From a virus, in IMG/VR virus record IMGVR_UViG_3300043464_000370, positions 1 through 43,073 of that record: DNA of 43,073 nt; one strand, written 5' to 3'. A program made the position numbers and the translations under genes. Below the pieces are notes generated by a model. That model was not told the DNA's origin and ran no database searches. It saw only the letters and a list, made by a program, of their open reading frames with translations. Of this stretch, positions 569 to 43,073 are shown in pieces; the stretch's first letter is position 1, and every line of letters starts with the position of its first letter.

Positions 569-981
569 TCAATGAGTTGATCAATCTTCACATCATGCAA
601 GGTAAAGAGCTGGTCGACCTATACAACCGGTACAGCTCTAACAAGGTGCTGCGGTTCAGCGACCGGGCTACCGCTATAAAGCGATGCACGCAGGTGCTCA
701 CTGAGGCCGCACTGCGCCAGCCCGAAGTGATCAAAGACCGACCGAACATGAAGGACTCGCTCAAACTCGACCGCACTATTCAGTGCGTTGAGGACGGCGA
801 GCTCGTCGGCGTGTGGCCGAACGCTCACCAGATGTGGAAGGATCGCCCCGACCTGCTCACTAGCAGCCAGCAAGACCGCCTGACCAAGCAGTTGTACTCG
901 GCTGCTAAACAAGGCGTCCGGCTCGTCGTAACGATAAACGATCGGCAGTTTTCACTTGTTAACGTCGCAGGAGTGAATTGA
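565..981 (+). CDS. Hypothetical protein with a YN-x-FxDR-type small domain
   Basis: The protein has 138 residues and starts with an ATGA overlap. The N-terminal part has GKELVDLYNRYSSNKVLRFSD followed by RATAIKRC, a pattern I associate with a small domain shared by DUF3489-type and other phage proteins (LvalYN...vkrFxDraTAikR). It is probably nucleic-acid linked, but no function is established. The rest contains a WPNAHQMWKDRPDLL segment and a C-terminal beta pair. Its place between the first gene and the PLP enzyme suggests co-expression with the modification genes. No catalytic motif is visible. Confidence 0.6.
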   Translation: MINELINLHIMQGKELVDLYNRYSSNKVLRFSDRATAIKRCTQVLTEAALRQPEVIKDRPNMKDSLKLDRTIQCVEDGELVGVWPNAHQMWKDRPDLLTSSQQDRLTKQLYSAAKQGVRLVVTINDRQFSLVNVAGVN

Positions 982-1940
982 TGAACACCGTATTCCCGCA
1001 GTTGACTCTTGACCGTGAACAGGTACATTGGGAAGACTACTTAGGCACACTCACCCCGTGGGAAAACCGCGGCGGTATTCACTTCAAGCGCGATGACTAC
1101 TTTGCCCCGCTCGGTTATGGCGGCCCCAACGGTAGCAAGATGCGCCAACTCATTTGGTATATCAACCGTTACCGGCCCGGTAAGAACCATATTGTCACCG
1201 GTGCGAGCATTCAGTCGCCACAGCTCAGCATGAGTGCGATCGTCGGGCAGCACTACGGGTTACAAGCCCGGCAGGTGGTTTATAGCAAGCCGGAAACCGT
1301 GCTCAAACATGAGAATCCGCGCATCGCCGCGGGGTTCGGTGCGGTGTTTGAATACGCCAGCGGCCCGTATAACCCGATTATTCAAAATAAAGTCGTCAAC
1401 CTGACCAAGCCTAACTCGCTCGTAGTTGAATATGGTATCACGCTCCCACATGACCGCTACCCGGCTGACGATGTGCGCAAGTTCCACGAGGTCGGCGCAA
1501 ACCAAGTGAGTAATATGCCCGAGCAGGTTGAGACGCTTATCGCCCCGGCGGGTTCGTGCAACTCGCTGTGTAGCATACTGCTCGGTCTGAGCCGCGACCC
1601 TAAAAATGTCAAGCGGTTGTTCACTATCGGTATCGGCCCCGAAAAGCGCGATTGGGTCGAGGAGCGTATGGGCTTGATGGGTGTTGATACTAATTGGCTA
1701 CCGTTCAAGTGGGAACACCACAGCCTACACACGACCAAGTTCGCCAAGTACAGCGACAAGTTCACCGGCGAGAACTTTGAAGGCATTACGTTTCACCCGA
1801 CCTACGAGGCCAAAATGTGGCGGTGGCTCCGGCAGAACCCGAACGCGCTGCCGCGCAACGATACCGTAGGCTTTTGGATCGTAGGCTCGGCTCCGAGCAC
1901 TAAAGTGATTGAACCGTTTTTCACCCGGAGGTTGTCATGA
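981..1940 (+). CDS. PLP-dependent enzyme, fold type II (ACC deaminase/tryptophan synthase beta-like)
   Basis: The protein has 319 residues. Hallmarks of fold type II PLP enzymes are visible. GGPNGSKMRQ (48-56) matches the GGNKxRK site, with K53 as the probable Schiff-base lysine. GASIQSPQ (74-81) sits where the substrate-binding GGxxSNH loop is found. APAGSCNSLCS (188-198) takes the place of the phosphate-binding glycine loop, FHPTYEAK (271-278) resembles the conserved DPVYxxK, and VGSAPST is near the C-terminus. I chose ATG 981 over TTG 978 because GGAG lies 7 bases upstream and the overlap is TGATG. The kinase, transferase and hydroxymethylase genes beside it imply that it tailors an amino acid attached to thymine. 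That substrate is inferred; elimination, deamination, racemisation or replacement chemistry are all possible. Confidence 0.72.
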   Translation: MNTVFPQLTLDREQVHWEDYLGTLTPWENRGGIHFKRDDYFAPLGYGGPNGSKMRQLIWYINRYRPGKNHIVTGASIQSPQLSMSAIVGQHYGLQARQVVYSKPETVLKHENPRIAAGFGAVFEYASGPYNPIIQNKVVNLTKPNSLVVEYGITLPHDRYPADDVRKFHEVGANQVSNMPEQVETLIAPAGSCNSLCSILLGLSRDPKNVKRLFTIGIGPEKRDWVEERMGLMGVDTNWLPFKWEHHSLHTTKFAKYSDKFTGENFEGITFHPTYEAKMWRWLRQNPNALPRNDTVGFWIVGSAPSTKVIEPFFTRRLS

Positions 1941-2149
1941 GCGACAAACTGCTACAGTATGAAAAGCTGCTTAAAGCACACGATTGGTACTACGACTATT
2001 CAGACGATCACCGCGCATGGCGTAAAGGTTCAGACGAGTTTGACGCTCTGCGTAAACTCCGTAACGAACTGAAAGAAGAGTTTGATGTTAGGGTGCTTGA
2101 TCAAATATGGAACAAGTACTCTCCGTTCTCAAAAGAGACGCAGTCATGA
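1937..2149 (+). CDS. Small hypothetical protein in the hypermodification cassette
   Basis: Seventy residues, joined by ATGA overlaps to the PLP enzyme upstream and the transferase downstream, so strongly coupled to both. It is charged and mostly helical, with an aromatic cluster HDWYYDYSDDHRAWRKG at residues 15-31 and a C-terminal helix. There is no signal peptide, membrane segment or metal-binding pattern. It may be an accessory subunit of a neighbouring enzyme or an unrelated small phage protein; I do not recognise a family with certainty. Confidence 0.6.
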   Translation: MSDKLLQYEKLLKAHDWYYDYSDDHRAWRKGSDEFDALRKLRNELKEEFDVRVLDQIWNKYSPFSKETQS

Positions 2150-3147
2150 TCGACTACCGACAGCCCCAACACCGACGCGACTACTTCACGCGGTTGTACG
2201 AGCTCAACCTGACCCGCGGTATTATGCCGGGGCTGGTTTACTTGTACATGCCCGCGCTCGCCGAGCGTTATAACTGGGACGATGAACAGCGGCTTTGGTT
2301 CGCGTTCCTGAACGGTCTCACGCAGAACCCGATCACGTCGCTACGTCTGTTTCAACAACTACCCGAGGTGCCCCCCGCCCACGCGCCGCTCACTCGGTTT
2401 GAGCGGTGGTTCAACGATAACTGGGAGACACTGCAGTTTGACACTGATCGCCGGTATCAAAAGAAAGACACCGTCGACGCGATCAAACTCTACGCGCCGA
2501 TCGTCGCTACGCTCGGCTCTCAAAAGGCGCTCTTTCAGGGTCATCCGTTCTCATTCCTGTGGGAATCGGTACGTCACGGGTTTCACTCGTTCGGCCGACT
2601 GTCCGCGTTCAGTTACCTAGAGTATATCTACTTAAACGGGTTCGGCGCAGACTGCGATAACCTGCATTTTGACGACAAGTCGGGCAGCAAGTCTCACCGC
2701 AACGGTATGATGTTCCTGCTCGGTCAAGATCAATACGTGTGGGACAAGCGTATGCCGAACGGGTTTGACGGCAACTACCCGGACTTCAAAAAGATGTGCG
2801 ACTGGTTGGACTCTCAGTCAGTAGCCTACCTTGCTAACTTCCGTATAACTCACCCCAACGTACCGCATGTGGGTAAGTTTACGCTCGAGTCTAACCTGTG
2901 CACTTTCAAGAATCACTTTTTCGGTCGTCGCTACCCCGGCGTCTACGCAGACATGGCGCAAGAGCGTATTGAATGGGCTGATGAGCGCGGCCAGCAAGAC
3001 GTTACCGCGGTGTTCAAAGACATCCGCGCCGGGTTGCTCCCCGAGTGGCTTCGGTGTGAATGTGAACCCGAACGGCTAACACTCAAGCAGAAGGCGAAGC
3101 AGTTCGCTGATACCGGCTATCCGTACCGTGGAGAGCACTTCCTATGA
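2146..3147 (+). CDS. Putative amino acid:DNA transferase (alpha-glutamyl/putrescinyl thymine pyrophosphorylase-like)
   Basis: The protein has 333 residues. The start at ATG 2146 (ATGA overlap) is preferred to ATG 2107, which would need a 43-base overlap. The sequence is compatible with the all-alpha aGPT-Pplase families predicted in thymine-hypermodifying phages and later shown to join an amino acid to phosphorylated 5-hydroxymethyl-dU in DNA. Supporting features are the N-terminal RRDYFTRLYELNLTRGIMPG, NGLTQNPITSLRLF, a central RRYQKKDTVDAIKLY, HSFGRLSAFSYLEY, and a conserved-looking HPNVPHVGKFTLESNLCTFK near residue 260. The assignment rests on family recollection and on the gene neighbourhood. 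The amino acid used cannot be read from the sequence. A swap of role with the 3721-4641 product is possible. Confidence 0.6.
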   Translation: MIDYRQPQHRRDYFTRLYELNLTRGIMPGLVYLYMPALAERYNWDDEQRLWFAFLNGLTQNPITSLRLFQQLPEVPPAHAPLTRFERWFNDNWETLQFDTDRRYQKKDTVDAIKLYAPIVATLGSQKALFQGHPFSFLWESVRHGFHSFGRLSAFSYLEYIYLNGFGADCDNLHFDDKSGSKSHRNGMMFLLGQDQYVWDKRMPNGFDGNYPDFKKMCDWLDSQSVAYLANFRITHPNVPHVGKFTLESNLCTFKNHFFGRRYPGVYADMAQERIEWADERGQQDVTAVFKDIRAGLLPEWLRCECEPERLTLKQKAKQFADTGYPYRGEHFL

Positions 3148-3731
3148 AGCACATAATACTGCGCATTGCTGGCACGTTTGGTTCCGGCAAGACCACCGCG
3201 ATGCGGGAGTTCATGACCCGTTACCCGACGACCGAGCTACGCAACTCGGCTAACAAAATCATGGGGTACAAAACTGACGCGAGCAGTGCGGGTGTTAACA
3301 TACCGCTCTACATTGTCGGTAAGTACGATAACATCTGCGGCGGTACCGACGCGATTGATAAGCAGCAGGAGATCGCTGCCCGTATACTCAAAGCGCACCC
3401 GCTCGGACATGTGCTTTACGAGGGCGCACTCGTGTCGGCTAGCGGTCTCGCCGGTGCGGTGACGCAAGCCATTCACCCAACGGGGTGTGACGTGTATGCG
3501 TTCCTTGACACTCCGCAAGACCTCTGCATCACGCGGGTAGAAGGTCGCCGCGCAGCCAAAGGTAACGAAAAACCATTTGACCCCAAAAACCTGATTCAGA
3601 AGTTTGAAAGCGTCGTCAACTGTCGTCGTAATTTAATTAACGAAGGCACGTACGACGTGCGCGATATTGATCACACCAACCCGCACCCACAGTTGCTAGA
3701 AATTATCAGGGAGTACGAAAATGATAGATGA
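3144..3731 (+). CDS. Putative 5-hydroxymethyl-dU DNA kinase (P-loop kinase)
   Basis: The protein has 195 residues and starts with an ATGA overlap. Walker A is GTFGSGKTT at residues 10-18 after a hydrophobic first strand. A GKYDNICGGTDAI segment (about 54-66) and HVLYEGALVSAS (about 89-100) resemble the glycine-rich and acid-containing segments of phage 5-hmdU DNA kinases. A DTPQDLCITRVEGRR segment gives the lid-like arginines. The reaction inferred is ATP-dependent phosphorylation of the hydroxymethyl group of 5-hmdU in DNA, creating the leaving group for the transferase. An ordinary deoxynucleoside monophosphate kinase is the main alternative, but the neighbours favour the DNA kinase. Confidence 0.65.
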   Translation: MKHIILRIAGTFGSGKTTAMREFMTRYPTTELRNSANKIMGYKTDASSAGVNIPLYIVGKYDNICGGTDAIDKQQEIAARILKAHPLGHVLYEGALVSASGLAGAVTQAIHPTGCDVYAFLDTPQDLCITRVEGRRAAKGNEKPFDPKNLIQKFESVVNCRRNLINEGTYDVRDIDHTNPHPQLLEIIREYENDR

Positions 3732-4641
3732 ATGCCCGTTCCCGATGCCTACAAAAGATCGGGTATGTACGCCCGAAGGGTTCCTGTACTTTGTTTGGGA
3801 GCGCGAAGTCATTCGTGTCGCTCGCAGCAACGGGCACCCCGGCCCGTGGACGCAAGACCCGATACTGCAAAAGTACAAGTTCACCAACATCCGTCGCCGC
3901 GATGACCGCGTGTCGCAATGGATCATCCGTGAGATCATCAACCTGAACCTGCGCGACCCTGACTTGTGGTTCTCGCTGCTCATTGCGCGGCTGATCAACT
4001 GGCCACCGACACTCGGGCAGTTGATTTACGAAGACGTCATCCCGTGCTCTCCGGAGACGTTTGACGCCAAACTGTTCGTCAAAACGATTGAAGAATTCAA
4101 GGGTAACAGCAGTAAAGTGTACTCCGGCGCGTACATGGTGTACCCGACTAAAATGGATCCCGGCGGTAACAAGTCGCAGGCTATCGCCAAGCACATCATA
4201 GGCTCAGTTATTGAAAACGCTAAGAGCATCCGGTTTACGCTTAACACAGAGTATGACAAATCTATCGAGCGGTTTGTCACGGCGATGACCAAGGCTTTCG
4301 GCATCAGTACGTTTATGGCCGGGCAAGTGGCCGCCGACTTAACCTACGCGCCGGGTCATCTTGAAGACGCCGAGGACATCAATAGTTATGCGCCTATCGG
4401 CCCCGGCAGTTCACGCGGATTAAACTACTTGTTACACCGCCCTGCGTTCGCTACATGGAAGCAAGAGCAGTTCAATGCCGAGCTCAAGAAGCTGCGCGGG
4501 CTCATCAATAGCGAGCTGTGCATTGACGACCTCACGCTGCACGACGTACAGAACTGCATGTGTGAGTTTAGTAAGTATTGCCGCACTGTGTTGGGTGAAG
4601 GTTTACCCAAGACTACGTATCAACCCGAGAGAGAATTCTAA
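3721..4641 (+). CDS. 5-hmdU DNA kinase helical-domain protein or second pyrophosphorylase-like enzyme
   Basis: The protein has 306 residues and overlaps the kinase gene by 11 bases, with GGGAG 7 bases before its ATG. It contains an FVWEREVIRVARSNGHPGPW motif, then TQDPILQKYKFTNIRRRDDR (about residues 43-62). The C-terminus carries TLHDVQNCMCEFSKY and a GEGLPKTTYQP tail. This order matches the helical domain found with, and often fused to, phage 5-hmdU kinases, which is related to the aGPT-Pplase group. Here it is a separate gene directly after the P-loop kinase, so the two may form one enzyme. Alternatively it is a second amino acid transferase. No P-loop is seen in it. Confidence 0.55.
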   Translation: MIDECPFPMPTKDRVCTPEGFLYFVWEREVIRVARSNGHPGPWTQDPILQKYKFTNIRRRDDRVSQWIIREIINLNLRDPDLWFSLLIARLINWPPTLGQLIYEDVIPCSPETFDAKLFVKTIEEFKGNSSKVYSGAYMVYPTKMDPGGNKSQAIAKHIIGSVIENAKSIRFTLNTEYDKSIERFVTAMTKAFGISTFMAGQVAADLTYAPGHLEDAEDINSYAPIGPGSSRGLNYLLHRPAFATWKQEQFNAELKKLRGLINSELCIDDLTLHDVQNCMCEFSKYCRTVLGEGLPKTTYQPEREF

Positions 4642-4643
4642 AT

Positions 4644-5651
4644 ATGGAAATCAAAGCACGTAACGTCAATCACGCATTCAGCGAGGTCTTTTGGCTGCTC
4701 AATGCGTACCGCGGCACGAACGCGATAGCGCCTGAGGCGACCCGCAACGGCCCCGCGTACGTATTCCCCGAGCCGGTGATGACGACGTATACTAACCCGA
4801 TTGAGCGGGTATTGTTTCATCAGGGACGCGACGCTAACCCGATATTTCACTTGATGGAATCAATCTGGATGCTGGCGGGGCGGCAAGACGTCGAGTTCCT
4901 GCAGCAGTTCAACAGCAAGATCGGTCAGTTTAGCGATGACCAGCGTATTTTCAACGCGGCTTACGGCTACCGTTGGCGGCATCATTTTGGCCACGACCAG
5001 TTGCTTGAAGTGATTGAAATGCTGCGCACAGACCCTAACTCACGTCAAGCGGTCATTCAAATATGGGATCACTTTGATTTGCTCAAGCCTACAAAAGATA
5101 AGGCCTGCAACACTCAAGTGATATTTGATACCCGCGGTAATCGGCTCAATATGACCGTGTTCAACCGCAGCAACGATATTTGGTGGGGTGCGTACGGTGC
5201 TAACGCGGTGCACTTTAGCATACTGCAAGAGTTCGTGGCTATCGCGACCGGGTTTAAGATGGGTGTTTACCGGCAAGTGAGTAATAACTTTCACCTGTAC
5301 ACCGAGCTGTATAACGCTACCGAGTATATTGACACCCCGCCTAACATGACTAATTATGATCATTACTCAAATGGTAATGTGCGCGCCGTTCCGTTGTTTA
5401 GCGGTGACTACCGCGCTTTCCTCGCTGAATGTGAGCAGTTTTGCGCTGACCCGTTCAGCCTACGCAATGTTTACCGCAATGAGTTTTTCCCGTTGATCGC
5501 TCACCCGATGGCGATGGTGAGCTATGACCGCCGCAATAAACTCAGCGACGGTCGTCAATATATCAACAAAATACTAGCGTCTGATTGGCGTGTAGCGACG
5601 TTTGATTGGATCAACCGTCGTGAAGAAGCCAAAACCCGCTTGCCTTCTTGA
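4644..5651 (+). CDS. dUMP hydroxymethylase (thymidylate synthase family)
   Basis: The protein has 335 residues. Thymidylate-synthase signatures are clear: SRQAVIQIW with phosphate-binding R134, the catalytic cysteine C155 in KACNTQ, RSND (R175, S176, D178), and HLYTE (H217, Y219) near the nucleotide sugar. N187 in GAYGANAVHFS aligns with the Asn that selects dUMP over dCMP (Asp in dCMP enzymes), so uracil is the likely base. Sequence alone hardly separates thymidylate synthase from hydroxymethylase. The kinase and transferase neighbours make 5-hydroxymethyl-dUMP the expected product, formed with methylene-tetrahydrofolate and water. It is the last gene before the first non-coding gap of the cluster. 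Confidence 0.75.
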   Translation: MEIKARNVNHAFSEVFWLLNAYRGTNAIAPEATRNGPAYVFPEPVMTTYTNPIERVLFHQGRDANPIFHLMESIWMLAGRQDVEFLQQFNSKIGQFSDDQRIFNAAYGYRWRHHFGHDQLLEVIEMLRTDPNSRQAVIQIWDHFDLLKPTKDKACNTQVIFDTRGNRLNMTVFNRSNDIWWGAYGANAVHFSILQEFVAIATGFKMGVYRQVSNNFHLYTELYNATEYIDTPPNMTNYDHYSNGNVRAVPLFSGDYRAFLAECEQFCADPFSLRNVYRNEFFPLIAHPMAMVSYDRRNKLSDGRQYINKILASDWRVATFDWINRREEAKTRLPS

Positions 5652-5677
5652 GCGAAGTGAGTTTTAATTTGTAGCAT
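5648..5677 (+). promoter_or_regulatory. Weak candidate sigma70 promoter before the HD-domain gene
   Basis: The 48-base gap between the hydroxymethylase and the HD protein holds TTGAGC (5648-5653), an 18-base spacer and TAGCAT (5672-5677). Each hexamer matches 4 of 6 consensus bases. The -35 element lies partly in the end of the upstream gene. It could give extra transcription of the replication genes, but the match may be chance. Confidence 0.2.
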
Positions 5678-5699
5678 AACTGCTAACTGGAGATCTGAA

Positions 5700-6197
5700 A
5701 TGCGTAAAACCCTTGAATTCATAGTGTCCGGGAGCGAGGTCACGCGGTATCATACCGTGACGACGCTCGTGCGGGAGACCGTCGGTCATCACTCTCACGG
5801 TGTGGCTATGATGGTGCTGCTTATCAACCCGCGTGCTTCTGGCTCGTTGCTCCGGGCCGCGCTCATGCACGACCTTGCCGAGCACCAGACCGGTGACATC
5901 CCGTCCCCTGCCAAGCGCGAGTACGGTATCGGCGAGCAAGTTAACGAGCTTGAACATCGGCTGATGCTTGAGGCGGGTATTGAATTTCCCGAGCTCTCGG
6001 CAGAAGACCTCCGCACGCTCAAACTGGCAGACATCGCTCAAGGCGCAATGTACTGCCTGCGGGAAGTCTCATTGGGTAACAAAATGATGCAGCGGATATT
6101 CCGACGCTACTCGGAGTATGCCGAGGCCATGGAGCCCGTAGGCCGTGAGCGTGAAGTGTTCAATGCTATTTACGATCTTGAATGGGTATACGAATGA
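5700..6197 (+). CDS. HD-domain phosphohydrolase, YfbR-like 5'-deoxynucleotidase
   Basis: The protein has 165 residues and GGAG sits 7 bases before the ATG. The HD metal site is complete: a histidine in VGHHSHG (30-33), H57-D58 in ALMHDLAEHQTGDIPSPAK, and D111 in LKLADIAQG. The HDLxExxTGDIPxPxK run is typical of YfbR-like 5'-deoxyribonucleotidases, which remove phosphate from dNMPs. In a phage that replaces thymine, such an enzyme could deplete competing dTMP or dCMP; that role is inferred. The stop overlaps the next ATG. Confidence 0.72.
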   Translation: MRKTLEFIVSGSEVTRYHTVTTLVRETVGHHSHGVAMMVLLINPRASGSLLRAALMHDLAEHQTGDIPSPAKREYGIGEQVNELEHRLMLEAGIEFPELSAEDLRTLKLADIAQGAMYCLREVSLGNKMMQRIFRRYSEYAEAMEPVGREREVFNAIYDLEWVYE

Positions 6198-6457
6198 GCG
6201 CCAACGACAAGCAGGTGGGCGGTACTCACTACAAGCGCGGCGGCGAGGAGCACTGGGATCGTGTTCACCGTCTCGGTCTGAATTACTGGCAGGCAGCGGC
6301 CACCAAGTACATCGAGCGGTGTTACTTGAAGGGTAATCCTGTTCAAGATTTACAGAAGGCCGTTCACTATCTTGAGAAGCTCATCGAGATCGAGCAGGCT
6401 CGTGCCGCCGCTAATGACGGTAGCGAGCCCGGTCGCGGCTACGTGAATCAAGACTAA
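6194..6457 (+). CDS. DUF3310 family protein
   Basis: The start at ATG 6194 (ATGA overlap with the HD gene) gives 87 residues and is preferred to ATG 6182. The sequence fits DUF3310: QVGGTHYK near the start, LNYWQAAATKYIERC in the middle, then the KGNPVQDLQKAVHYLEKLI helix. The family is common in phage replication regions and has no settled function. The stop and the polymerase start share one base (TAATG). Confidence 0.7.
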   Translation: MSANDKQVGGTHYKRGGEEHWDRVHRLGLNYWQAAATKYIERCYLKGNPVQDLQKAVHYLEKLIEIEQARAAANDGSEPGRGYVNQD

Positions 6458-8298
6458 TGAGCACTTGGGTCTTTGACACCGAGACGCTACCTAACCGCAC
6501 GCTGTTCTGCGCGAAAAACGTAGAAACCGGCGAGTGGTTTGACGTATGGCGTCACCAACCGGACGCACCGGCGCGGTTACTGAAGTTCGTTCAGCAGCCC
6601 GGTGCGACGTTGGTTGGCTTCAACAATCGGTTCTTTGATAACGTGATTGTGGCGGCGTTTTGTCAAGGGCGGCAGGAGATTGAAATCAAACGCATAGCGG
6701 ATGATTTGATCGTTGCGGACACTGCGCCTTGGGTTGCGATGCGCAAGTATAACCTGCGGGAAGTGATACTTGACAGCATCGACTTGGTCGAGGTCGCTCC
6801 GTCGTTCGTTGGGTTGAAAGCCTACGGCGCACGGATGCATATGCCGCGGCTTCAAGACATGCCGATCAAACACACCGCGTTCATCAAGCCCGAGCAAGAG
6901 CCGCTCCTGCTTGAATACTGCCATAACGACGTTGATACGACCGCCGAGTTGCTCCGGCAACTTGAAAAGGAAGTCTTGCTGCGTGTTGAAATGAGCCGCG
7001 CCTACGGGGTTGACATGCGTAGCAAGTCAGACTCGCAAATGGCCGAGCAAGCGTACATCACGAGCATGGGGCTCAAGCGCGCCGACAACGCAGTGCCGCC
7101 GACTATCCGGTATGTTGCGCCGGAGTTCCTCCGGTTCAACGACCCGGGACTGCAGGCGCTACTTGACCGCGTCGTCAGCCATACGTTTGAAATGAATCAG
7201 CGCACCGGGCACGTCATCCTGCCGGACTTCCTCGGGTTAACGACCGTCAAGTTCAATCAGGGTGAATACCAGCTCGGCGTAGGTGGTATTCATAGCACGC
7301 ACGACAAGCAAGTGTGTCACGTTGCGGGTGACGAAGTCATCACGGATATTGACGCGGCCTCGTTTTACCCGTCAATCATCCTTGAGTGTGGGTTCGTACC
7401 GGCGGCGCTCGGGCAGCGGTTTGTTGATGAGTACCGGAACATTTATAACCGCCGCCTTGAAGCCAAGCGGAACGGCGACAAAGTCACCGACGGTACGCTC
7501 AAGATTAGCCTGAACGGTACGTTCGGCAAGTTGGCGAGCCGTTACTCGGTGTTGTACTCGCCTGACCTGATGCTCGCCGTCACCCTGACCGGGCAGTTTA
7601 CGCTGCTCATGCTTATAGAGCGGCTCGAGGCGGCGGGGGCGGTGACGCTTTCGGCGAACACCGACGGCATCGCGATACGCTACGAGAAACGCCTAATGGA
7701 CGTCGTTAACCGCGTTGTTAACGAGTTCAGCGAGCTGTCGCGGTTTCAGTTTGAGTTCACTCCGTACCGCGTGTTGGCGATGAAAGACGTGAACAATTAT
7801 ATCGCCGTTAAGCCTGATCGGTCGCTCAAGGTTAAAGGTATTTACGCGCCGTTATCGCTGCGTAAAAACCCCACCGCGCAGGTCGCTGCCGACGCGGTAG
7901 GTCAGTGGCTCGCACACGGTATACCGTTCATGGAAACGATCCGTAACGCACCGTTCCAAGATTTTATCAGTGCGCGCAACGTCACGGGCGGCGGGCAGCA
8001 GTCGGGCGAATACTTGGGTAAAGTGGTACGTTGGTACCAATCAAACGACCCGGCGCTTGAGCCTATCCGCTACGCTAGTAACGGTAACAAGGTGCCCAAG
8101 ACTGACGGCGCACGGGCCTGCATGACGCTGCTTGACCGAGTAGCGCACCCGGCAGACCTAGACTTTGACTGGTATCACAAAGAGGCTATCAAGATCGCCG
8201 TCGCGGTGGGTTGCGAACGCTTCTTGACAGCAGAGGAAATAGCGATAATCACCCCTCCACCTAAAGTAACCAAGAGACGCAAAAATGGAACCCGGTAA
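6457..8298 (+). CDS. Family B DNA polymerase with 3'-5' exonuclease domain
   Basis: The protein has 613 residues, short for the family. Exonuclease motifs are present: I FDTET (6-10; D7, E9), II GFNNRFFDN (54-62) and III YCHNDVDTT (154-162). GVGGIHS (275-281) matches the linker loop between exonuclease and polymerase. Polymerase motif A is DIDAASFYPS (297-306), motif B KISLNGTFGK (349-358), and motif C NTDG (401-404), in which the usual first Asp is Asn and D403 is kept. It copies the phage genome and must accept modified-thymine templates or hmdU precursors. The next gene begins within its last 14 bases. Confidence 0.9.
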   Translation: MSTWVFDTETLPNRTLFCAKNVETGEWFDVWRHQPDAPARLLKFVQQPGATLVGFNNRFFDNVIVAAFCQGRQEIEIKRIADDLIVADTAPWVAMRKYNLREVILDSIDLVEVAPSFVGLKAYGARMHMPRLQDMPIKHTAFIKPEQEPLLLEYCHNDVDTTAELLRQLEKEVLLRVEMSRAYGVDMRSKSDSQMAEQAYITSMGLKRADNAVPPTIRYVAPEFLRFNDPGLQALLDRVVSHTFEMNQRTGHVILPDFLGLTTVKFNQGEYQLGVGGIHSTHDKQVCHVAGDEVITDIDAASFYPSIILECGFVPAALGQRFVDEYRNIYNRRLEAKRNGDKVTDGTLKISLNGTFGKLASRYSVLYSPDLMLAVTLTGQFTLLMLIERLEAAGAVTLSANTDGIAIRYEKRLMDVVNRVVNEFSELSRFQFEFTPYRVLAMKDVNNYIAVKPDRSLKVKGIYAPLSLRKNPTAQVAADAVGQWLAHGIPFMETIRNAPFQDFISARNVTGGGQQSGEYLGKVVRWYQSNDPALEPIRYASNGNKVPKTDGARACMTLLDRVAHPADLDFDWYHKEAIKIAVAVGCERFLTAEEIAIITPPPKVTKRRKNGTR

Positions 8299-23000: not shown

Positions 23001-23482
23001 TTCTTGCCAAAAGCCTGAGTCCCAAACCAAAAGGCAATGATAGATGACAAAATCAACATTTCATCATCTGAAAATACTTCTGCCATTGCGGCGGCAAACG
23101 GCACGCCCGTGTTGTAGGCGTACCAGACTCCGGCAATATTGATGGCGACTAGCTCTAACACGAAAATATACGTCACAACCGGACGAACGCTGGCGCGGAG
23201 GTTAATCATCCACTGCGACGCGCCTTTGCCAATTTCCATGTCGTGCTGGTACAAAGCCACACGCTCTTCGGCTGCGGACTGCACCTGAACCTGCTCCAGT
23301 TTGATCTCTTCTACCCGTGCCTGAGCAATGAAGCCTCGTTCGGCCAGCGCCAACTCGCGCTCCTTCTGGGCAGCGACCAAGGCTAACTCATGTTTCTTGT
23401 CCTGCCGGTCTTGGAAGATTTGCAGGATCTTGGGAAGCCCACCCGCAAGGAAGGACAGAAACGTACTAATCATTGTCATCAT
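22997..23482 (-). CDS. Holin, 3TM-holin type
   Basis: The start at ATG 23482 is favoured: GGAGGA is 7 bases upstream and the overlap with the sulfotransferase stop is ATGA. It gives 161 residues. An N-terminal hydrophobic/amphipathic helix (4-21) is followed by a long charged coiled coil (25-85). Then comes WMINLRASVRPVVTYIFVLE, with a membrane helix at about 102-122 and another at about 141-158, ending FWFGTQAFGKK. This layout matches the phage/GTA three-TM holin family. It lies directly before the lysozyme and would time membrane permeabilisation. Confidence 0.78.
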   Translation of the reverse strand: MMTMISTFLSFLAGGLPKILQIFQDRQDKKHELALVAAQKERELALAERGFIAQARVEEIKLEQVQVQSAAEERVALYQHDMEIGKGASQWMINLRASVRPVVTYIFVLELVAINIAGVWYAYNTGVPFAAAMAEVFSDDEMLILSSIIAFWFGTQAFGKK

Positions 23483-24075
23483 GCGTCTATCCTCCGACCA
23501 AACTTCTGAAACCAAAGTTCGCAGTCTTCGGCGTATTTAGTTTTTACATAGCTAACGACTTTCTTAGCCATTTCTTTCTTACCGTCATACGCGCCTTTAT
23601 TTTCCCAGCCTATCGGGAAATCATCTAACCCAAGACCCACAGTCGCCTTTCTCAACTCAAACTCATAATTGTCAAAGTCGAGAGCCGTTACTTCCAAATC
23701 ACTATTGAAGTATTTGGACTGCGGAAATAGTAAACCCGCAAAATTAACGTCTTTATGGCGTTCGTAATAAACTTCTATAAAGTCTTTATAGTCGACAATA
23801 TCATTTCTTGAGAAAACTTTTATTAACTGCTGGGTGTATTTGTACTCTTTAAACATCAATATTCCACTGACAAACCGTTCAGCGGGATTTCGTAAAAAAG
23901 AGTAAACCTTGTACTCGCTTAAATTTGGCTCAAACTCAATAGCTCTTTCGGGCGTAGCATGTCTATCGTCAAAAACAACCGCATCTTTGCAGTTCATCAA
24001 GAACTTCGCGGCTGTTGTTGACCCCGTTTTAGGGGGAAACAAAAAGGCTACTTTATGGTCTTTGAATAAAACCAT
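23479..24075 (-). CDS. Sulfotransferase family protein (PAPS-dependent)
   Basis: The protein has 198 residues. The 5'-phosphosulfate loop is FPPKTGSTT (13-21) on the first strand, and the 3'-phosphate site is SFLRNPAERFVSG (59-71). These two elements define PAPS-dependent sulfotransferases. It would move a sulfuryl group from PAPS to an unknown acceptor, perhaps a sugar or a tyrosine. The gene lies between a tail gene and the holin and is markedly AT-richer than the capsid region: line 23521-23580 has 22 G/C of 60 by hand count, against 38 of 60 at 38641-38700. It is probably a cargo gene acquired by transfer. Confidence 0.72.
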   Translation of the reverse strand: MVLFKDHKVAFLFPPKTGSTTAAKFLMNCKDAVVFDDRHATPERAIEFEPNLSEYKVYSFLRNPAERFVSGILMFKEYKYTQQLIKVFSRNDIVDYKDFIEVYYERHKDVNFAGLLFPQSKYFNSDLEVTALDFDNYEFELRKATVGLGLDDFPIGWENKGAYDGKKEMAKKVVSYVKTKYAEDCELWFQKFGRRIDA

Positions 24076-36814: not shown

Positions 36815-37225
36815 TCAGATGAATGCTCGGATCTTGGTCGGGTCGGTGGTTACCTTGCCTACAATATCCAAATCGTTAAAGATCACAAACAGCGCCACAC
36901 CCCGGTCATTAAGGTCGACCTCCCAGCGGTCGCCGCCGTACTTAGGCACTCGCACGAAGTCGCCGGTTTTACACCAGTCACCCTCGGGCCAAGGCTCCAT
37001 CGTGTTGCGGTTTTTGAACGCTAGCGGACCGACAGCAATAACCTTAGCGACTTGCGTATTCCACTTCTCGGTCTCTTGCGAGCCGAGGTCAATGATAATG
37101 CCGCCCGAGGTTTTTTGCTTAGGGTTGCGGATCTGTACCAAAACGCGGCTACCGAACGGCTGAATGCCCGGATCTGCATCCGGAAAAGCCGCCTCCATCG
37201 CGTCTTCAAAGGTCTTTGTCGCCAT
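36815..37225 (-). CDS. GroES-like co-chaperonin
   Basis: The protein has 136 residues, with AGGAG before the ATG. After an N-terminal extension, PFGSRVLVQIRNPKQKTSGG then IIIDLGSQETEKWNTQVAKV reproduces the GroES beginning and mobile loop (usually KTxGGIxLP). AVGPLAFKNRNT and DWCKTGDFVRVPKYGGDRWE match the second half of the barrel. It could replace host GroES on GroEL to fold the capsid protein, as T4 gp31 does. The location between portal and scaffold fits that use. Confidence 0.75.
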   Translation of the reverse strand: MATKTFEDAMEAAFPDADPGIQPFGSRVLVQIRNPKQKTSGGIIIDLGSQETEKWNTQVAKVIAVGPLAFKNRNTMEPWPEGDWCKTGDFVRVPKYGGDRWEVDLNDRGVALFVIFNDLDIVGKVTTDPTKIRAFI

Positions 37226-37541: not shown

Positions 37542-40040
37542 TTACGGTTGCGGGTTGATACCAGTGCCGGTGGAGACGTCGAACTTCTCTCCGGCGGCGA
37601 TCTCGGCAGCGGCCAACTGCTTGGCCGTCTCGTTGTCCGAGGTGTTCATAAATACGCGGGCCTCGATGTCGTCCGCGGTGCGAGCGTTTTGGCTCTGCTC
37701 GCGCAGCTGTACCAGCGACGCTTCTTGCTGCATTTCGGCCTGCTTCATCTGCAGCTCGGCTTGCTTGACTTGAGCGTCTTGCTGTGCTTTTTGCTGCTCG
37801 AGTTGGAGCTTGGCTTGGTCGGCTTGCGCCTTCATCTGCATCGCCATCTGATCGACCTGCGCACGGAGCTGCGCTACCGCCATTGAGTTGTCCGGCGGCA
37901 TTTGCGGCTGCATGTACTGATCGGCCATCTGCTTGACCTGCCCCATAACCTGAGGCAAGAATCCGAGTTGTTTTTCGACCACAGACTGAACCTGCATGAT
38001 GAAGTCGGCTTCCTGCATCGATTCAGCCGGAATGATGCCTTCTTCCGTGATACCCTGCAGACCCTTGTGGGCCTCGACTAGGTAGTAGTTGAGCAGGTGA
38101 TCACGCAGGTGCCCGAGTATTGCGGGCATGTACGTAGGCGCTATTGCAGGGTTACTACCCAACACAGGCGACTGAAGGAAGGCAAGATGCACACGGAGGT
38201 GCGCGATGTGATCCTGTTTGGGCAGCACGTAGATCGGCTGACCCATCGACGCGGCGACGTTCTCAGACACTGGATCACGGTCGTCTTCTCCTACCTTGGG
38301 CGCGAGTACATCGTCCGGCACTTTGAGCGCCGTGATGAACATTTCCTCAATTTTGCGCAAATTGTACATTTGCGGCATCATTGCGGAGCGTTGAATGAGC
38401 GCCTGAATCTGAGCGAACCGCTGGGTCTCGCTGAAAATGTTAGGGTCAGAGACCGGGATGACGTCCATTGGGCCGTCAAAGTCTGATGGCTCCACTTCCA
38501 TATCGCCCGATTGGAGCTCGATGAGGTCCTCGGTCAGGTAAGCGGAGTTGAGCCGGTGCAATACTTTGAGCACCCGTGCCATCGAGTTGTGCAGCCGCGA
38601 ATGAATCGAGCTGAACACCACCATTCCCTGTTCAATCAGCGCGAGCGTCGTGCCGACCGGCTGGTTGGGGTTCTGGTCGGAGAGCTTCTCAAAGGAAGTC
38701 TGCACCACACCCTTGCCGGCATCCACGAGGAAACCGAGCAACTGGAACAACACGGGTGACGGCGGGTTGAACGGCACCGGCATCGCGATTTTGCGGACGT
38801 CGTCAACATTGACGCCGCCTTCAATATCAACGATCTCGGTCGGCATCAGGTTGATGGTCTGCCCGTTGGGGCCGCCCTTCAACTTGAGCATCGTCGGAAT
38901 GTTCTGAATATGCGCCGAGTCAAGCAGAGCGCGGAGCGCACCAGTGGCCGCCCCCGACAGACTGCCGATCATGTGCGTCAAACCGATAGCATACGCACCG
39001 CGCCAAGGGACGAACGGGAACTCGATGACCCATTCAAGCTCGTTACGCATTGGGTCGTTAGGTTCCCAGTTGCGGTACAGCGAGAGCCCTTTACCGGTCG
39101 TTTTGTCAATGGTGAGCAGGTAAGGGACGGTGCCCTCGCCAAAGTCGAGGAATGTGCACACTTCGTACACGGTGCGCAGTCCGTCCTCGTTGTAGTTCAT
39201 CTCTTGACGGCCTTCGATCTTGTCGTTGGCTTTGCTCGCCTTTGAGAAGTCTATTTCACCCGGCGACCCCAAGTCGACGTCGCGGTACATACCGGCTTCA
39301 ACCCGGCGCTGGTACTCAAACTTGGTGATATACTGCACGTGCGTTTTACGCTCGGCAGTGTAGAAGTTGGTCGCGGCGAACGGCAAGTAAATGTCGTCAA
39401 CCGGAATGAACTCGCAGGTGGGGCGCTGGCGGCGCTTATCCCACGTGAATTTGAGGTATTGCGAGCCGCCGAGCGGGAGCTGTGTTGACAACTGTTCGAG
39501 CTCACCCCGGAACTCCGGGATCTGCTCGGTCAACTGCCAATTCATGTAGTCCGTCTTACGCTTCGCCTTGGTGAGCACGTCAGGATCAGCGTTACCGACG
39601 ATTTTGCTGCGCACCGGCCCGTTAGGAGGCATCATCTCCTTCATCATACGGGCAGAAAAGTCTACGCAAGCCTCAATAAGCATCGGGTGAACGACCTTGG
39701 AGGCACCCGTGAACTGCGCCCCGCCCGGTGCGTCATCGCCGAGTCCGGTGCGTCGGAGGCCTTCCTCGTACACTTCGTCACGGCGCTTGCGTGCGTCTTT
39801 GTCACGCGAGATTTTGTCCAGCAAATCCTCGATTACAATACCGAGCTCGCGCTGGTCGACTTCCTCGATGATGTTAGCAAAGTGTTCGCCTTTTTGCGCG
39901 GCGTCCAGTTCGTTCTCGAGTTTGACGATAGCGCCGCCGTCGTCGGTGTCAATCACCTCGGCGGGGGCGTCCATTTCAATCTCGACCATTTCGGCCTGCA
40001 TTGCGACGGGTTCTTCAGCCGGGTTCATCGGGTCAGCCAT
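37542..40040 (-). CDS. Portal protein (P22-like)
   Basis: The protein has 832 residues. After an acidic N-terminus, the canonical portal stretch includes RRDEVYEEGLRRTGLGDDAP, TGASKVVHPMLIEACVDFSA, MMPPNGPVRSKIVG and PLGGSQYLKFTWDKR. Further on come FIPVDDIYLPFAATNFYTAE, WVIEFPFVPWRGAYAIGLTH and GAATGALRALLDSAHIQN. The C-terminal 130 residues form a Gln-rich helix (MQMKAQADQAKLQLEQQKAQ), as in the long barrel of P22-type portals. It makes the dodecameric DNA channel and joins the adaptor proteins. Confidence 0.85.
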   Translation of the reverse strand: MADPMNPAEEPVAMQAEMVEIEMDAPAEVIDTDDGGAIVKLENELDAAQKGEHFANIIEEVDQRELGIVIEDLLDKISRDKDARKRRDEVYEEGLRRTGLGDDAPGGAQFTGASKVVHPMLIEACVDFSARMMKEMMPPNGPVRSKIVGNADPDVLTKAKRKTDYMNWQLTEQIPEFRGELEQLSTQLPLGGSQYLKFTWDKRRQRPTCEFIPVDDIYLPFAATNFYTAERKTHVQYITKFEYQRRVEAGMYRDVDLGSPGEIDFSKASKANDKIEGRQEMNYNEDGLRTVYEVCTFLDFGEGTVPYLLTIDKTTGKGLSLYRNWEPNDPMRNELEWVIEFPFVPWRGAYAIGLTHMIGSLSGAATGALRALLDSAHIQNIPTMLKLKGGPNGQTINLMPTEIVDIEGGVNVDDVRKIAMPVPFNPPSPVLFQLLGFLVDAGKGVVQTSFEKLSDQNPNQPVGTTLALIEQGMVVFSSIHSRLHNSMARVLKVLHRLNSAYLTEDLIELQSGDMEVEPSDFDGPMDVIPVSDPNIFSETQRFAQIQALIQRSAMMPQMYNLRKIEEMFITALKVPDDVLAPKVGEDDRDPVSENVAASMGQPIYVLPKQDHIAHLRVHLAFLQSPVLGSNPAIAPTYMPAILGHLRDHLLNYYLVEAHKGLQGITEEGIIPAESMQEADFIMQVQSVVEKQLGFLPQVMGQVKQMADQYMQPQMPPDNSMAVAQLRAQVDQMAMQMKAQADQAKLQLEQQKAQQDAQVKQAELQMKQAEMQQEASLVQLREQSQNARTADDIEARVFMNTSDNETAKQLAAAEIAAGEKFDVSTGTGINPQP

Positions 40041-42855
40041 TGAGTTTCTCTCTTACTCGGTTGACGATCTCATCAACGACCGCCGGATTATAACCTACTT
40101 TGCCGCCCGCCGCCATTTTCACCGCGCCGCCGGTGGCGAGTTCTCCCGGTGTGCCGAACTTGAGCAAGAGGTCTTCGTATTCTTTCCGCGTGAGATATTT
40201 AGGCACTTTACCGGCTCGGCGTGCTTTTTCTAACGCCATCGTGCGCCCTTTTTTGTCCATGCGGAACGCTTCGGGCATAATGTTTACGATGTTTTCAACG
40301 TCAAACAGGTCGGTATTATTGATATCGCCGGAGATTTCATAGTTACCAGACCGGATGAAGTCTTGCACGAGCGGGATGTCTTCTGGTTGAGGCTTCCTGT
40401 TATTAACACCTTTGACTTGAACTATTTGCATCGGCGGGTCAGGTAACATATTACCCTCTGCGTCTATGAACCCTTGATTGTACAACATCTCCATTTTGGC
40501 GTTGTCATCAAGATCTGCAGTGTCCGGGTCGGTGTCAAGACGCTGCTTGGCTTCCGCAAACGTGAGGCGTTGGTCACGATCCGGCTGCACTTCAATCGTC
40601 ACCCGCGGGCGACCGTCATCATCGCGCAGGCTGAAGATGCGGTTTCTACCCGAAATGACGTTCTCACACTGACCGCCTACACAATGAATCATCATTTCGC
40701 CTTCGTACTTGAGTGCGTCTTTAAGTGCGGCTTTACGCGGATCTTCTAACATGTCGTTCTTTGTGCCGGGTTGGCGATACGTCGGTTCGCCGAGCGCGGT
40801 GGGTTTACCCGGCTCATACCCTTCCGGCAGGTCATCCGGCATCTTGAGCTCAACCCACTTGAGTCCCTGCTCGGGATATTCCTTGACGGGCACCGTAGCG
40901 ATGTTACCGGCGCGGGCCGCGTTGACTTCGCTTGTTCGAGTAGCGCGGAACGCATTGATGTCGTCGACGAGTTTAGAAGCCTGCGCCATGTTGAGCATCT
41001 TCAACTTGTCGGGTGTGATCTTGAGAGAGTCGGGCAGATCGCTTTCTGGGTCGAGCGCGTTGCGGAGCTCGTCCCGCATGTGACCGAACTCAAGATCATT
41101 GAACCCGCCTAAACCGAGGTCCGGCTGGTACACCATCGTCTCGGGCGGCACTTTAGTCAACCACGGATTGTTCTCTATCATAGAGTACACGCGGCGATTG
41201 AGTATGCCACCCGCCATCTGCGGAGTTATTGACAGGTCGGCCATGTTCTCCCAGCCCTTACCGAGCTCGCTCTTGGCCATACCTTCGGGGTCAAAACCGA
41301 AATCTTTACGGCGGTCGGCTACCAGCTCCGGAACCCAGCGTTGCGCTAAGTCGAGCGGACGCGGGGTCATATGCGCGCCGGACTGCTTGTCAATGTAGTC
41401 TCGCTCGCGACGCAACTCGCGAATACGCGCTTGCGACCGGGTGAGCATCTCCGGCGTGAAACCACGCTCGGCGCGAGCCTTTTCAAGATCCAGCATCGCT
41501 TTGCTGATCTGCTGGTCTTTCTGCTCAAGTAGCTGTTTCTTTTTAACCGCGAACTCGTCAATTTGCTTACGGATCGGGTCGTCGGGTGACGCCAACTCAT
41601 TCTTGACATACTTGGCGAGCTTTTGGTCGAGCCATGTGTCAAGCGCCGCGTTGCGGGTTTCGCTTTGAATCTCTTGCTGAAGATCGTATTCGATGTTTTG
41701 GTTGAACGGATCGTCAGGATCAAGTTGGTCTTTATAAGACTCGTAAGTTTCGACGAGCTCTAGCGGAGTTTTAGGAACTACTGGTTCTGTCTCAGTAACA
41801 AACGCAGCCGGGAGTCGTTTAGGTGTCTTGAAGTTTTCTACCACTGACTCAACCGAACCTTTAGGCCAGTTACCGCCCTTGGGTTTGATCACTTGCGTAG
41901 TGGGAACGGTTTTGCCTACCCCGCGCGTGGGGTCAAGGAACATCTCCGCGGTCAACTGCGCACCAAACTGCCCGGCAGACTCCGGGGTCGCGGCGGCTAC
42001 CTTAGCGGGTAGCTGCTTGACTGACTCCACCCCGCTCAACACCATGTTACGCAACCCTGCCGGTAGTTGCTTAAGCAGCGCGATTTGCTCGGCGGGCTCA
42101 AGTTGGTACAGGTACGTGTTAAGCGCGCTCAGCATGTCCGCATAACCGGTGGCGACGCCTTGGGCCGCACCCGGGAGTGACTTGAGGAACGAACTGCCGA
42201 AGCGAGCAAGACGGTCGTCGGGCCGTTGACCCGGCGCTCGGTAGCCCGTTGCGCGGTCAGCCGGGAGCGCGGGGCCGCCGTTGGCGAACGGGGTCACCCG
42301 CTGGGCACCGGATTCGCGCTTAGCATACTCCCGCGCCAGTGCGGCGATCTCTTTACGGTCGCGCTTGATGTTCGCCTCTTTGTCAGCGAGCGCCTGCTCA
42401 ACACCCGCCAAGTTCTGAGCGTAGTCGGCGACCTCGTTGGACTTGGTGCGGCTCGGCTTCATATAGTCGCGCAGTTGGTACTGCAGCGCCATCGCCCGCG
42501 CATCCTCAGCGGAAACCTCGGGCCGTGCGGCCCAATCGTACCCGCCCGCAAAATTGATCGCTGCGTCAAGGGGGCCGCGGTCAACTCGCTTTGCGCCCAG
42601 CTCGGGATACCGCTCGCGCAGCATTTTGGCGAACACCTCGGGCGCTTGTAGGTGGCCCGCATACGCCTTGGACTCGCCGAACATGTACTTGAGCCCCTTA
42701 CCCGCACCTTTGGCGAGCTCGCCTAGTTTACTGGGCAGGCTCATTTCAGCGTAAGGGTCGGCGTAGTCTTGCAGCACGGGGCCGCCCTCAGCCATATTGC
42801 GGGCTTTGAACTCGCCCACGATACGCTCAACACGCTCGCGGTCGTAGCCGCTCAC
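40033..42855 (-). CDS. Large possibly polyvalent virion protein with PcfJ-like motif
   Basis: The start at GTG 42855 (GTGA overlap, AAGGTG 5 bases upstream) gives 940 residues; TTG 42876 would add 7. The N-terminal part has Gly- and Ala-rich helices, the middle long coiled coil (around LQQEIQSETRNAALDTWLDQ and KKKQLLEQKDQQISKAMLDL). Near residues 722-757 there is MIHCVGGQ then SGRNRIFSLRDDDGRPRVTI, matching the HCVGxY...SLRD...TIE signature of PcfJ-like domains found in large polyvalent phage proteins. KMAAGGKVG lies near the end. It is probably packaged or injected, but its activity is unknown. Confidence 0.58.
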   Translation of the reverse strand: MSGYDRERVERIVGEFKARNMAEGGPVLQDYADPYAEMSLPSKLGELAKGAGKGLKYMFGESKAYAGHLQAPEVFAKMLRERYPELGAKRVDRGPLDAAINFAGGYDWAARPEVSAEDARAMALQYQLRDYMKPSRTKSNEVADYAQNLAGVEQALADKEANIKRDRKEIAALAREYAKRESGAQRVTPFANGGPALPADRATGYRAPGQRPDDRLARFGSSFLKSLPGAAQGVATGYADMLSALNTYLYQLEPAEQIALLKQLPAGLRNMVLSGVESVKQLPAKVAAATPESAGQFGAQLTAEMFLDPTRGVGKTVPTTQVIKPKGGNWPKGSVESVVENFKTPKRLPAAFVTETEPVVPKTPLELVETYESYKDQLDPDDPFNQNIEYDLQQEIQSETRNAALDTWLDQKLAKYVKNELASPDDPIRKQIDEFAVKKKQLLEQKDQQISKAMLDLEKARAERGFTPEMLTRSQARIRELRRERDYIDKQSGAHMTPRPLDLAQRWVPELVADRRKDFGFDPEGMAKSELGKGWENMADLSITPQMAGGILNRRVYSMIENNPWLTKVPPETMVYQPDLGLGGFNDLEFGHMRDELRNALDPESDLPDSLKITPDKLKMLNMAQASKLVDDINAFRATRTSEVNAARAGNIATVPVKEYPEQGLKWVELKMPDDLPEGYEPGKPTALGEPTYRQPGTKNDMLEDPRKAALKDALKYEGEMMIHCVGGQCENVISGRNRIFSLRDDDGRPRVTIEVQPDRDQRLTFAEAKQRLDTDPDTADLDDNAKMEMLYNQGFIDAEGNMLPDPPMQIVQVKGVNNRKPQPEDIPLVQDFIRSGNYEISGDINNTDLFDVENIVNIMPEAFRMDKKGRTMALEKARRAGKVPKYLTRKEYEDLLLKFGTPGELATGGAVKMAAGGKVGYNPAVVDEIVNRVREKLNG

Positions 42856-43073
42856 CACTTCACCTTGTTCGCCCAATACGCTGCGGAGCTCGGCCCCTTG
42901 GCGATGTTCTTTGAGTGGCGCGCTTTGAACGATTTACGCTTTTGGGTCATGCGGTCGGACTCACCCGACTTCGGCTTACCCGCGGTTGAGGCACCCTGCT
43001 CGCCAAAACGGATGATCCGCTCTTGGCCGTCGTAACACGCTTTGACGACGTGCGACTTGTCAGGATGCGACGG
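42852..43073 (-). CDS. Conserved hypothetical phage protein, C-terminal part (runs off the window)
   Basis: The frame is open from the right edge to a TGA at 42852-42854, giving 73 residues without a start. The visible part has HVVKACYDGQERIIRFGEQG, KSGESDRMTQKRKSFKARHS and the end YWANKVKW, and is very basic. Short basic proteins with this RxxFxxRHxxN...YWANKVKW ending are common near the packaging/portal genes of podoviruses. It may bind DNA or act in assembly; the role is unproven. Confidence 0.6.
   Translation of the reverse strand, partial: PSHPDKSHVVKACYDGQERIIRFGEQGASTAGKPKSGESDRMTQKRKSFKARHSKNIAKGPSSAAYWANKVKW

Follow-up and report, generated by a model that had tools for sequence, protein, structure and literature searches.

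The IMG/VR record IMGVR_UViG_3300043464_000370, a linear virus contig of 43,073 bases, was analysed over its entire length and is referred to below as the window. Close to its left end lies a tightly packed operon which is almost certainly a thymidine hypermodification cassette. Seven open reading frames (ORFs), all on the + strand, occupy positions 981-6197:

981-1940, + strand: pyridoxal phosphate (PLP)-dependent enzyme of fold type II, of the type of phage ViI (phrog_3650, E=2e-81)
1937-2149, + strand: small ORF of 70 amino acids, with 4-base overlaps with the PLP gene and the gene that follows
2146-3147, + strand: amino acid:DNA transferase (ADDT, formerly aGPT-Pplase2), of ViI type (PF18724, E=4e-16; phrog_3271, E=5e-62)
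3144-3731, + strand: P-loop catalytic subunit of a predicted 5-hydroxymethyldeoxyuridine (5-hmdU) DNA kinase, with the Walker A motif GTFGSGKTT (PF18748, E=1e-4; phrog_800, E=9e-17)
3721-4641, + strand: helical domain of the 5-hmdU DNA kinase, encoded as a separate subunit (formerly aGPT-Pplase1; PF18723, E=7e-44)
4644-5651, + strand: predicted dUMP 5-hydroxymethylase of the thymidylate synthase family (phrog_5131, E=8e-104; Thymidylat_synt, E=7e-23)
5700-6197, + strand: YfbR-like HD-domain 5'-deoxynucleotidase (PF12917, E=2e-9), in the position of gp59 of phage M6

Overlapping junctions predominate, with TGATG at 979-983, ATGA at 1937, 2146 and 3144, and 11 bases shared at 3721-3731. A preliminary description of this DNA had combined six of these genes into one 5-hmdU-based thymidine hypermodification pathway, and every family assignment that it made stands; the 70-amino acid ORF, found only in the near-identical contigs L041, L042 and L121, had been missed, and the start of the PLP gene is corrected here to ATG 981. 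The longest ORF of the ADDT opens at 2107. Its start is most likely ATG 2146, because relatives align from about there, without sharing the 13 extra residues of the longer reading, and because the first 12 residues of that reading are disordered in an AlphaFold (AF2) model.

The synthase carries a nucleophile at C155 and a uracil-reading asparagine at N187, both at the positions first proposed and both kept in M6, in PaMx11-like and ViI-like phages and in the relatives of the window. The window shares Cys-Asn at the nucleophile with other hmdU phages (M6, Ab19, Pam3, Montesquieu and the ViI-like phage SFP10); phiNIT1 and PSD2001 thymidylate synthases have Cys-His instead. The protein is 43% identical to M6 gp58, with which it groups, and its best match in the PDB is a CMP 5-hydroxymethylase (E=4e-21). 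Together with phrog_5131, these residues point to a synthase of the dUMP hydroxymethylase type. Profile searches also placed the ADDT, the helical subunit and the YfbR-like protein, like the synthase, in the expected families above the Pfam cut-off.

For the putative kinase this holds for one subunit of two: the match of the P-loop protein to Pfam HMUDK_HMUD1 (PF18748) lies under the cut-off, but the same profile is matched by 27 of the 29 members of its family, the best at 3e-8, and the protein shares phrog_800 with M6 gp54. It is 35% identical to the Ab19 kinase, and the helical subunit is 34% identical to M6 gp55; searches of both proteins against the PDB gave chance matches only. The two genes together encode a predicted two-subunit 5-hmdU DNA kinase. 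The family phrog_800 is named 'terminase small subunit' by PHROGs, and many phage entries in GenBank use that name too, for example for M6 gp54.

The ADDT is an amino acid:DNA transferase both by PF18724, above the cut-off, and by fold. Its model (predicted local distance difference test score, pLDDT, of 90.8) finds its best PDB matches in 8z2m and 8z2n, with a probability of 1.00 and an E of only 0.09; both are structures of gp46, a 5-phosphomethyl-dU glycinyltransferase from a phage of the PaMx group. Sequence searches of the PDB, with the single sequence and with a profile, returned nothing. The PLP protein has no match in Pfam. A profile comparison relates it to D-cysteine desulfhydrase (E=3e-7), whose PLP lysine aligns with K54 of the window; K54, numbered from TTG 978 (K53 from ATG 981), is invariant from the window through ViI and M6. 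The protein is 34-37% identical to its counterparts in ViI and phiA8-29, and the nearest solved enzymes are D-cysteine desulfhydrase and 1-aminocyclopropane-1-carboxylate (ACC) deaminase. It is predicted to decarboxylate an O-linked amino acid on the base.

Both of these finishing enzymes belong to the ViI branch of the pathway. ADDTs of ViI, VioletZ, Montesquieu and the window fall in phrog_3271 and those of M6, PaMx11 and phiW-14 in phrog_6364; PLP enzymes of ViI, Montesquieu and the window fall in phrog_3650 and that of M6 in phrog_7093. A maximum-likelihood tree of ADDTs separates the ViI side, with the window, from the M6/PaMx11/phiW-14 side, of glycine or putrescine type, with support of 100/100, and although long branches are present, the split between the ViI and glycine sides is the longest of them. 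More than 25 positions that are fixed, or nearly so, among the ADDTs of the window's relatives are also fixed on the ViI side and different on the glycine side. In GenBank phages the two genes co-occur, with 162 ADDTs and 158 PLP enzymes in Salmonella phages, 62 and 61 in Vibrio, 44 and 44 in Klebsiella and 29 and 29 in Escherichia; the exception is Mycobacterium, for which 27 phages have an ADDT and none a PLP enzyme among the matches listed.

A radical S-adenosylmethionine (SAM) enzyme, an acetyltransferase and a flavin lyase had been reported as not visible in this DNA, and they were not found in 23 larger related records either (50-61 kb, one of 102 kb). Radical SAM enzymes were absent from all 23 in a search which matched the controls M6 and Pam3, as were DAO-type flavin adenine dinucleotide (FAD) enzymes (control Ab19 matched), and no GNAT acetyltransferase was found in the window or the 23 records (control Ab19 matched). 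These three are enzymes of the M6 and PaMx11 branches; the end product of ViI, 5-(2-aminoethoxy)methyl-dU (5-NeOmdU), requires just synthase, kinase, ADDT and PLP enzyme. With an ADDT and a PLP enzyme of the ViI branch, it is therefore expected that all three are lacking, which gives no sign of a new base, and the suggestion in the preliminary description that the final base is new, or that genes are missing, is not supported. Nor does the operon appear to follow the M6 branch, which leads to 5-(2-aminoethyl)-dU (5-NedU), since it lacks radical SAM and its ADDT and PLP enzyme fall in other PHROGs. The pair of FAD enzyme and GNAT that marks the PaMx11 branch was not found in these searches, and the ADDT does not fit the putrescinylthymine branch of phiW-14, the ADDT of that phage belonging to phrog_6364 on the opposite side of the tree.

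Three further genes adjoin these seven:

565-981, + strand: ORF of 138 amino acids, kept upstream of the PLP gene in 95 loci, its stop overlapping the PLP start (TGATG)
6182-6457, + strand: DUF3310 protein, a member of the operon (PF11753, E=4.5e-5, slightly under the cut-off)
6457-8298, + strand: phage DNA polymerase, next in the operon, whose matches are B-type (38-39% identical to those of Vibrio LP.1 and of CAjan-like phages)

The 138-amino acid ORF has no Pfam match and a weak one to phrog_4730 (E=4e-4). The DUF3310 protein is 53% identical to M6 gp61 over 64 amino acids. The polymerase is not required by the chemistry.

Comparison with cultured phages shows the operon to be a hybrid. ViI (Salmonella, Ackermannviridae) shares with the window an ADDT of phrog_3271, a PLP enzyme of phrog_3650 and a kinase helical domain of phrog_2396; its relative SFP10 shares the N-type synthase, and GNAT and DAO-type FAD enzymes were not found in our searches of ViI. 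Its genes are scattered over 157 kb (ADDT at 151 kb, PLP at 141 kb, helical domain at 88 kb), in contrast to the single operon described here. M6 (Pseudomonas, Yuavirus), whose 5-NedU cassette spans gp51-gp59, has ADDT and PLP genes followed by P-loop, helical subunit, synthase, HD nucleotidase and polymerase, and its core proteins are 28-43% identical to those of the window, but it also carries a radical SAM gene and Nmad5, and its ADDT and PLP enzyme belong to phrog_6364 and phrog_7093. PaMx11 and Ab19 (Pseudomonas) share the kinase pair, synthase, HD nucleotidase and ADDT fold (8z2m); they have an FAD enzyme and an acetyltransferase in place of PLP, and a glycine-type ADDT. Judged by sequence, the core of the operon (kinase pair, synthase, nucleotidase and DUF3310) is thus M6/PaMx11-like and in M6 gene order, and since ADDT and PLP enzyme are of ViI type, the whole joins a ViI-like finish to an M6-like core, a new arrangement of what is probably a known chemistry.

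Two other cultured phages resemble the window in part. Montesquieu (Glutamicibacter, 47.6 kb) has adjacent ADDT and PLP genes of the same PHROGs, a helical gene and a synthase, but in two separate clusters, with Ploopntkinase3 family kinases and at 30-36% identity. VioletZ (Mycobacterium, Coopervirus) encodes the closest cultured ADDT (38%), whose neighbours, unlike those in the window, are a Ploopntkinase3 kinase and an oxygenase of Tet/JBP-like type (L003:785-1759 and 1765-2826); a helical gene and PLP were not found in it. A link to 7-deazaguanine, suggested by the PHROG label 'queuine tRNA-ribosyltransferase' on the mycobacteriophage gene beside the ADDT, was dropped because the Pfam match of that gene, under the cut-off at E=3.5e-6, is to a Tet/JBP oxygenase; the PHROG name looks wrong for the VioletZ oxygenase.

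ADDTs couple free amino acids to phosphomethyl-dU, and in ViI serine is used, after which the PLP enzyme decarboxylates it. We infer a similar series of reactions for the window from gene identity, gene order and the retained catalytic residues. The synthase-like enzyme would convert dUMP to 5-hydroxymethyl-dUMP, and the YfbR-like nucleotidase would clear competing dTMP, probably lowering the dTMP pool. In replication hmdUTP would take the place of dTTP, the kinases leading from hmdUMP to hmdUTP being possibly those of the host. The P-loop and helical subunits would then phosphorylate 5-hmdU in DNA at preferred sites to 5-phosphomethyl-dU; the ADDT would swap the phosphate for an amino acid, most likely serine via its oxygen; and decarboxylation by the PLP enzyme would give 5-NeOmdU, the base of phage ViI. 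Part of the thymine would be rewritten in this way, and the amine-bearing base would resist many restriction enzymes. On this model the gene set is complete for 5-NeOmdU, which we consider the end product with a probability of about two in three.

The DNA of CBA120 and ViI contains 5-NeOmdU (PMC11721090, PMC6449724), at about 40% of thymidines in ViI-type DNA (PMC11721090). In such phages the kinase phosphorylates 5hmdU after its incorporation, further modification follows, many restriction enzymes are resisted, and a TG/TC preference is ascribed to the kinase (PMC6449724). A depletion of TG/TC as a footprint of modification was not seen in the record, where observed/expected is ~1.0.

Several points weigh against 5-NeOmdU. 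The product is predicted here from the genes of a metagenomic record, on the model of two ViI steps, the use of serine and its decarboxylation, which were reportedly assigned by Lee and colleagues in 2018 and 2022. The best structural match of the ADDT is a glycinyltransferase, which is the sole ADDT structure that the fold search returned. The ADDT of the window is only about 26% identical to that of ViI and belongs, together with those of Montesquieu and the mycobacteriophages, to a clade that is sister to the ViI one, and we found no record of the amino acid used by the ADDTs of those phages. The same pathway might accordingly end in another base, either by transfer of a different amino acid or through a PLP enzyme that is not a decarboxylase; the nearest solved PLP enzymes, named above, fit this, and fold type II PLP enzymes also catalyse eliminations and replacements. 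Such an outcome is possible, if unlikely, given that positions common to nearly all 81 ADDTs of the window clade and to the ViI group span the protein, that the partner PLP enzyme is likewise of ViI type, and that the two co-occur.

An extra gene may also lie outside the record, which has no end repeats or sign of circularity over its 43,073 bases and is probably a fragment of a larger phage genome because several relatives measure 55-61 kb. Since the larger relatives exceed it by some 12-17 kb, the window could be missing an enzyme that tailors the ViI product further, and 13 related contigs do have an added methyltransferase-like gene, in most of them between PLP and ADDT. In the window, however, PLP gene, small ORF and ADDT gene overlap with no such gene between them, and GNAT and FAD enzymes were not found in the relatives, so that further tailoring seems improbable. 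A pathway of M6 type, with its radical SAM gene beyond the fragment, would agree with a backbone of P-loop, helical subunit, synthase, HD nucleotidase and polymerase that follows M6 gp54-gp62, and with the identity of the synthase (43%) and the helical subunit (34%) to M6; it is highly improbable in view of an ADDT and a PLP enzyme that are not of M6 type, and of radical SAM enzymes missing from all 23 relatives though detected in M6 and Pam3. Decay or loss of activity of the cassette is barely conceivable: we found no support for it, every frame is open, neighbouring genes mostly overlap, the catalytic residues are retained and at least 98 contigs have conserved orthologues.

Those contigs, all distinct, were recovered by two scans of IMG/VR for related cassettes. 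In 116 of 116 viral-contig loci holding all four, several of them from the same contig, ADDT, P-loop, helical and synthase genes stand in the same order on one strand, and the gaps between them have medians of -3, -7 and +1 bases. This gene order is far beyond chance, and the operon is widespread in uncultured phages. The PLP gene occurs in 21 of the 23 larger records; it is absent from the whole records of L088 (60.8 kb) and L108 (57.5 kb), which form a clade of cassettes without PLP with their relatives L073, L081, L090, L091, L098 and L117. One contig of 101,830 bases (IMGVR_UViG_3300047121_000347) holds two cassettes about 58 kb apart, L091 and L135, one with and one without PLP; sequences of two phages have probably been joined in it as a chimera during assembly.

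The gene added in 13 contigs encodes a protein of 248-257 amino acids just upstream of ADDT (e.g. L159:8957-9727 and L067:2315-3061). Eleven of these proteins are close; the other two, from L110 and L111, occupy the equivalent position at loci which show no PLP, with an identity of only ~20%. No match was found in Pfam or PHROG; a model (pLDDT 84) resembles Trm1, METTL5 and other SAM methyltransferases of class I (E ~1e-6), and a distant homologue lies upstream of the Pam3 cassette. The P-loop subunit comes in two classes, with the motifs TFGSGKTT and CNGSGKT; the tree of the helical subunit implies a minimum of 9 changes between them, of which well-supported branches require only 2. A comparison of L126 with L127 gives 91-98% identity for the PLP, helical, synthase and HD proteins and 84% for the ADDTs, but only 50% for the P-loop subunits; DNA identity is 46-66% inside the P-loop gene (L126:10149-10724 versus L127:5072-5646) and is restored at its end. 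This exchange between two alleles looks like the swap of a specificity subunit, a reading suggested by the kinase being thought to set sequence context.

The added methyltransferase-like gene, the missing PLP gene and the swapped kinase subunit are all differences which might alter the final base. Taken together, these variants could describe a modular system in which the end product varies among close relatives, the P-loop subunit being an exchanged site-specificity cassette, PLP loss leaving the amino acid undecarboxylated, the SAM methyltransferase-like enzyme N-methylating the aminoethoxy base to undescribed bases, and the window ADDT installing an amino acid other than serine; as a whole this view is doubtful and rather speculative. 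Apart from it, the relatives are natural variants (with or without PLP, with the methyltransferase-like gene, with two kinase alleles) which make step order and site specificity testable, and 5-NeOmdU DNA could be obtained from one compact operon instead of from genes spread over 157 kb.

The portal protein of the window is 51% identical to that of Caulobacter phage RW and 34% to that of Pelagibacter phage HTVC023P, which places the phage, by this protein, in the podovirus-like RW/HTVC023P group. A single packed operon of a common group of uncultured podovirus-like phages combines the predicted ViI finishing chemistry with a kinase core resembling that of M6. ADDT, helical and PLP genes were not found in RW, HTVC023P, CRP-902, DSL-LC04 or MW202545, with queries that worked in other phages. 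Uncultured HTVC023P-type pelagiphages have a synthase and aGPT-Pplase1 near the polymerase, and the available part of that report makes no mention of an ADDT/PLP finish in them (PMC9599517).

Three other genes of the window, all on the - strand, were noted:

23479-24075, - strand: sulfotransferase-like protein amid virion genes (PF03567, E=5e-4, slightly under the cut-off)
36815-37225, - strand: GroES-like Cpn10 protein (E=3e-10) near the portal gene
40033-42876, - strand: protein of 947 amino acids with a weak PcfJ-like match, adjoining the portal gene

A PcfJ-like protein is annotated at the same place in phage DSL-LC04.

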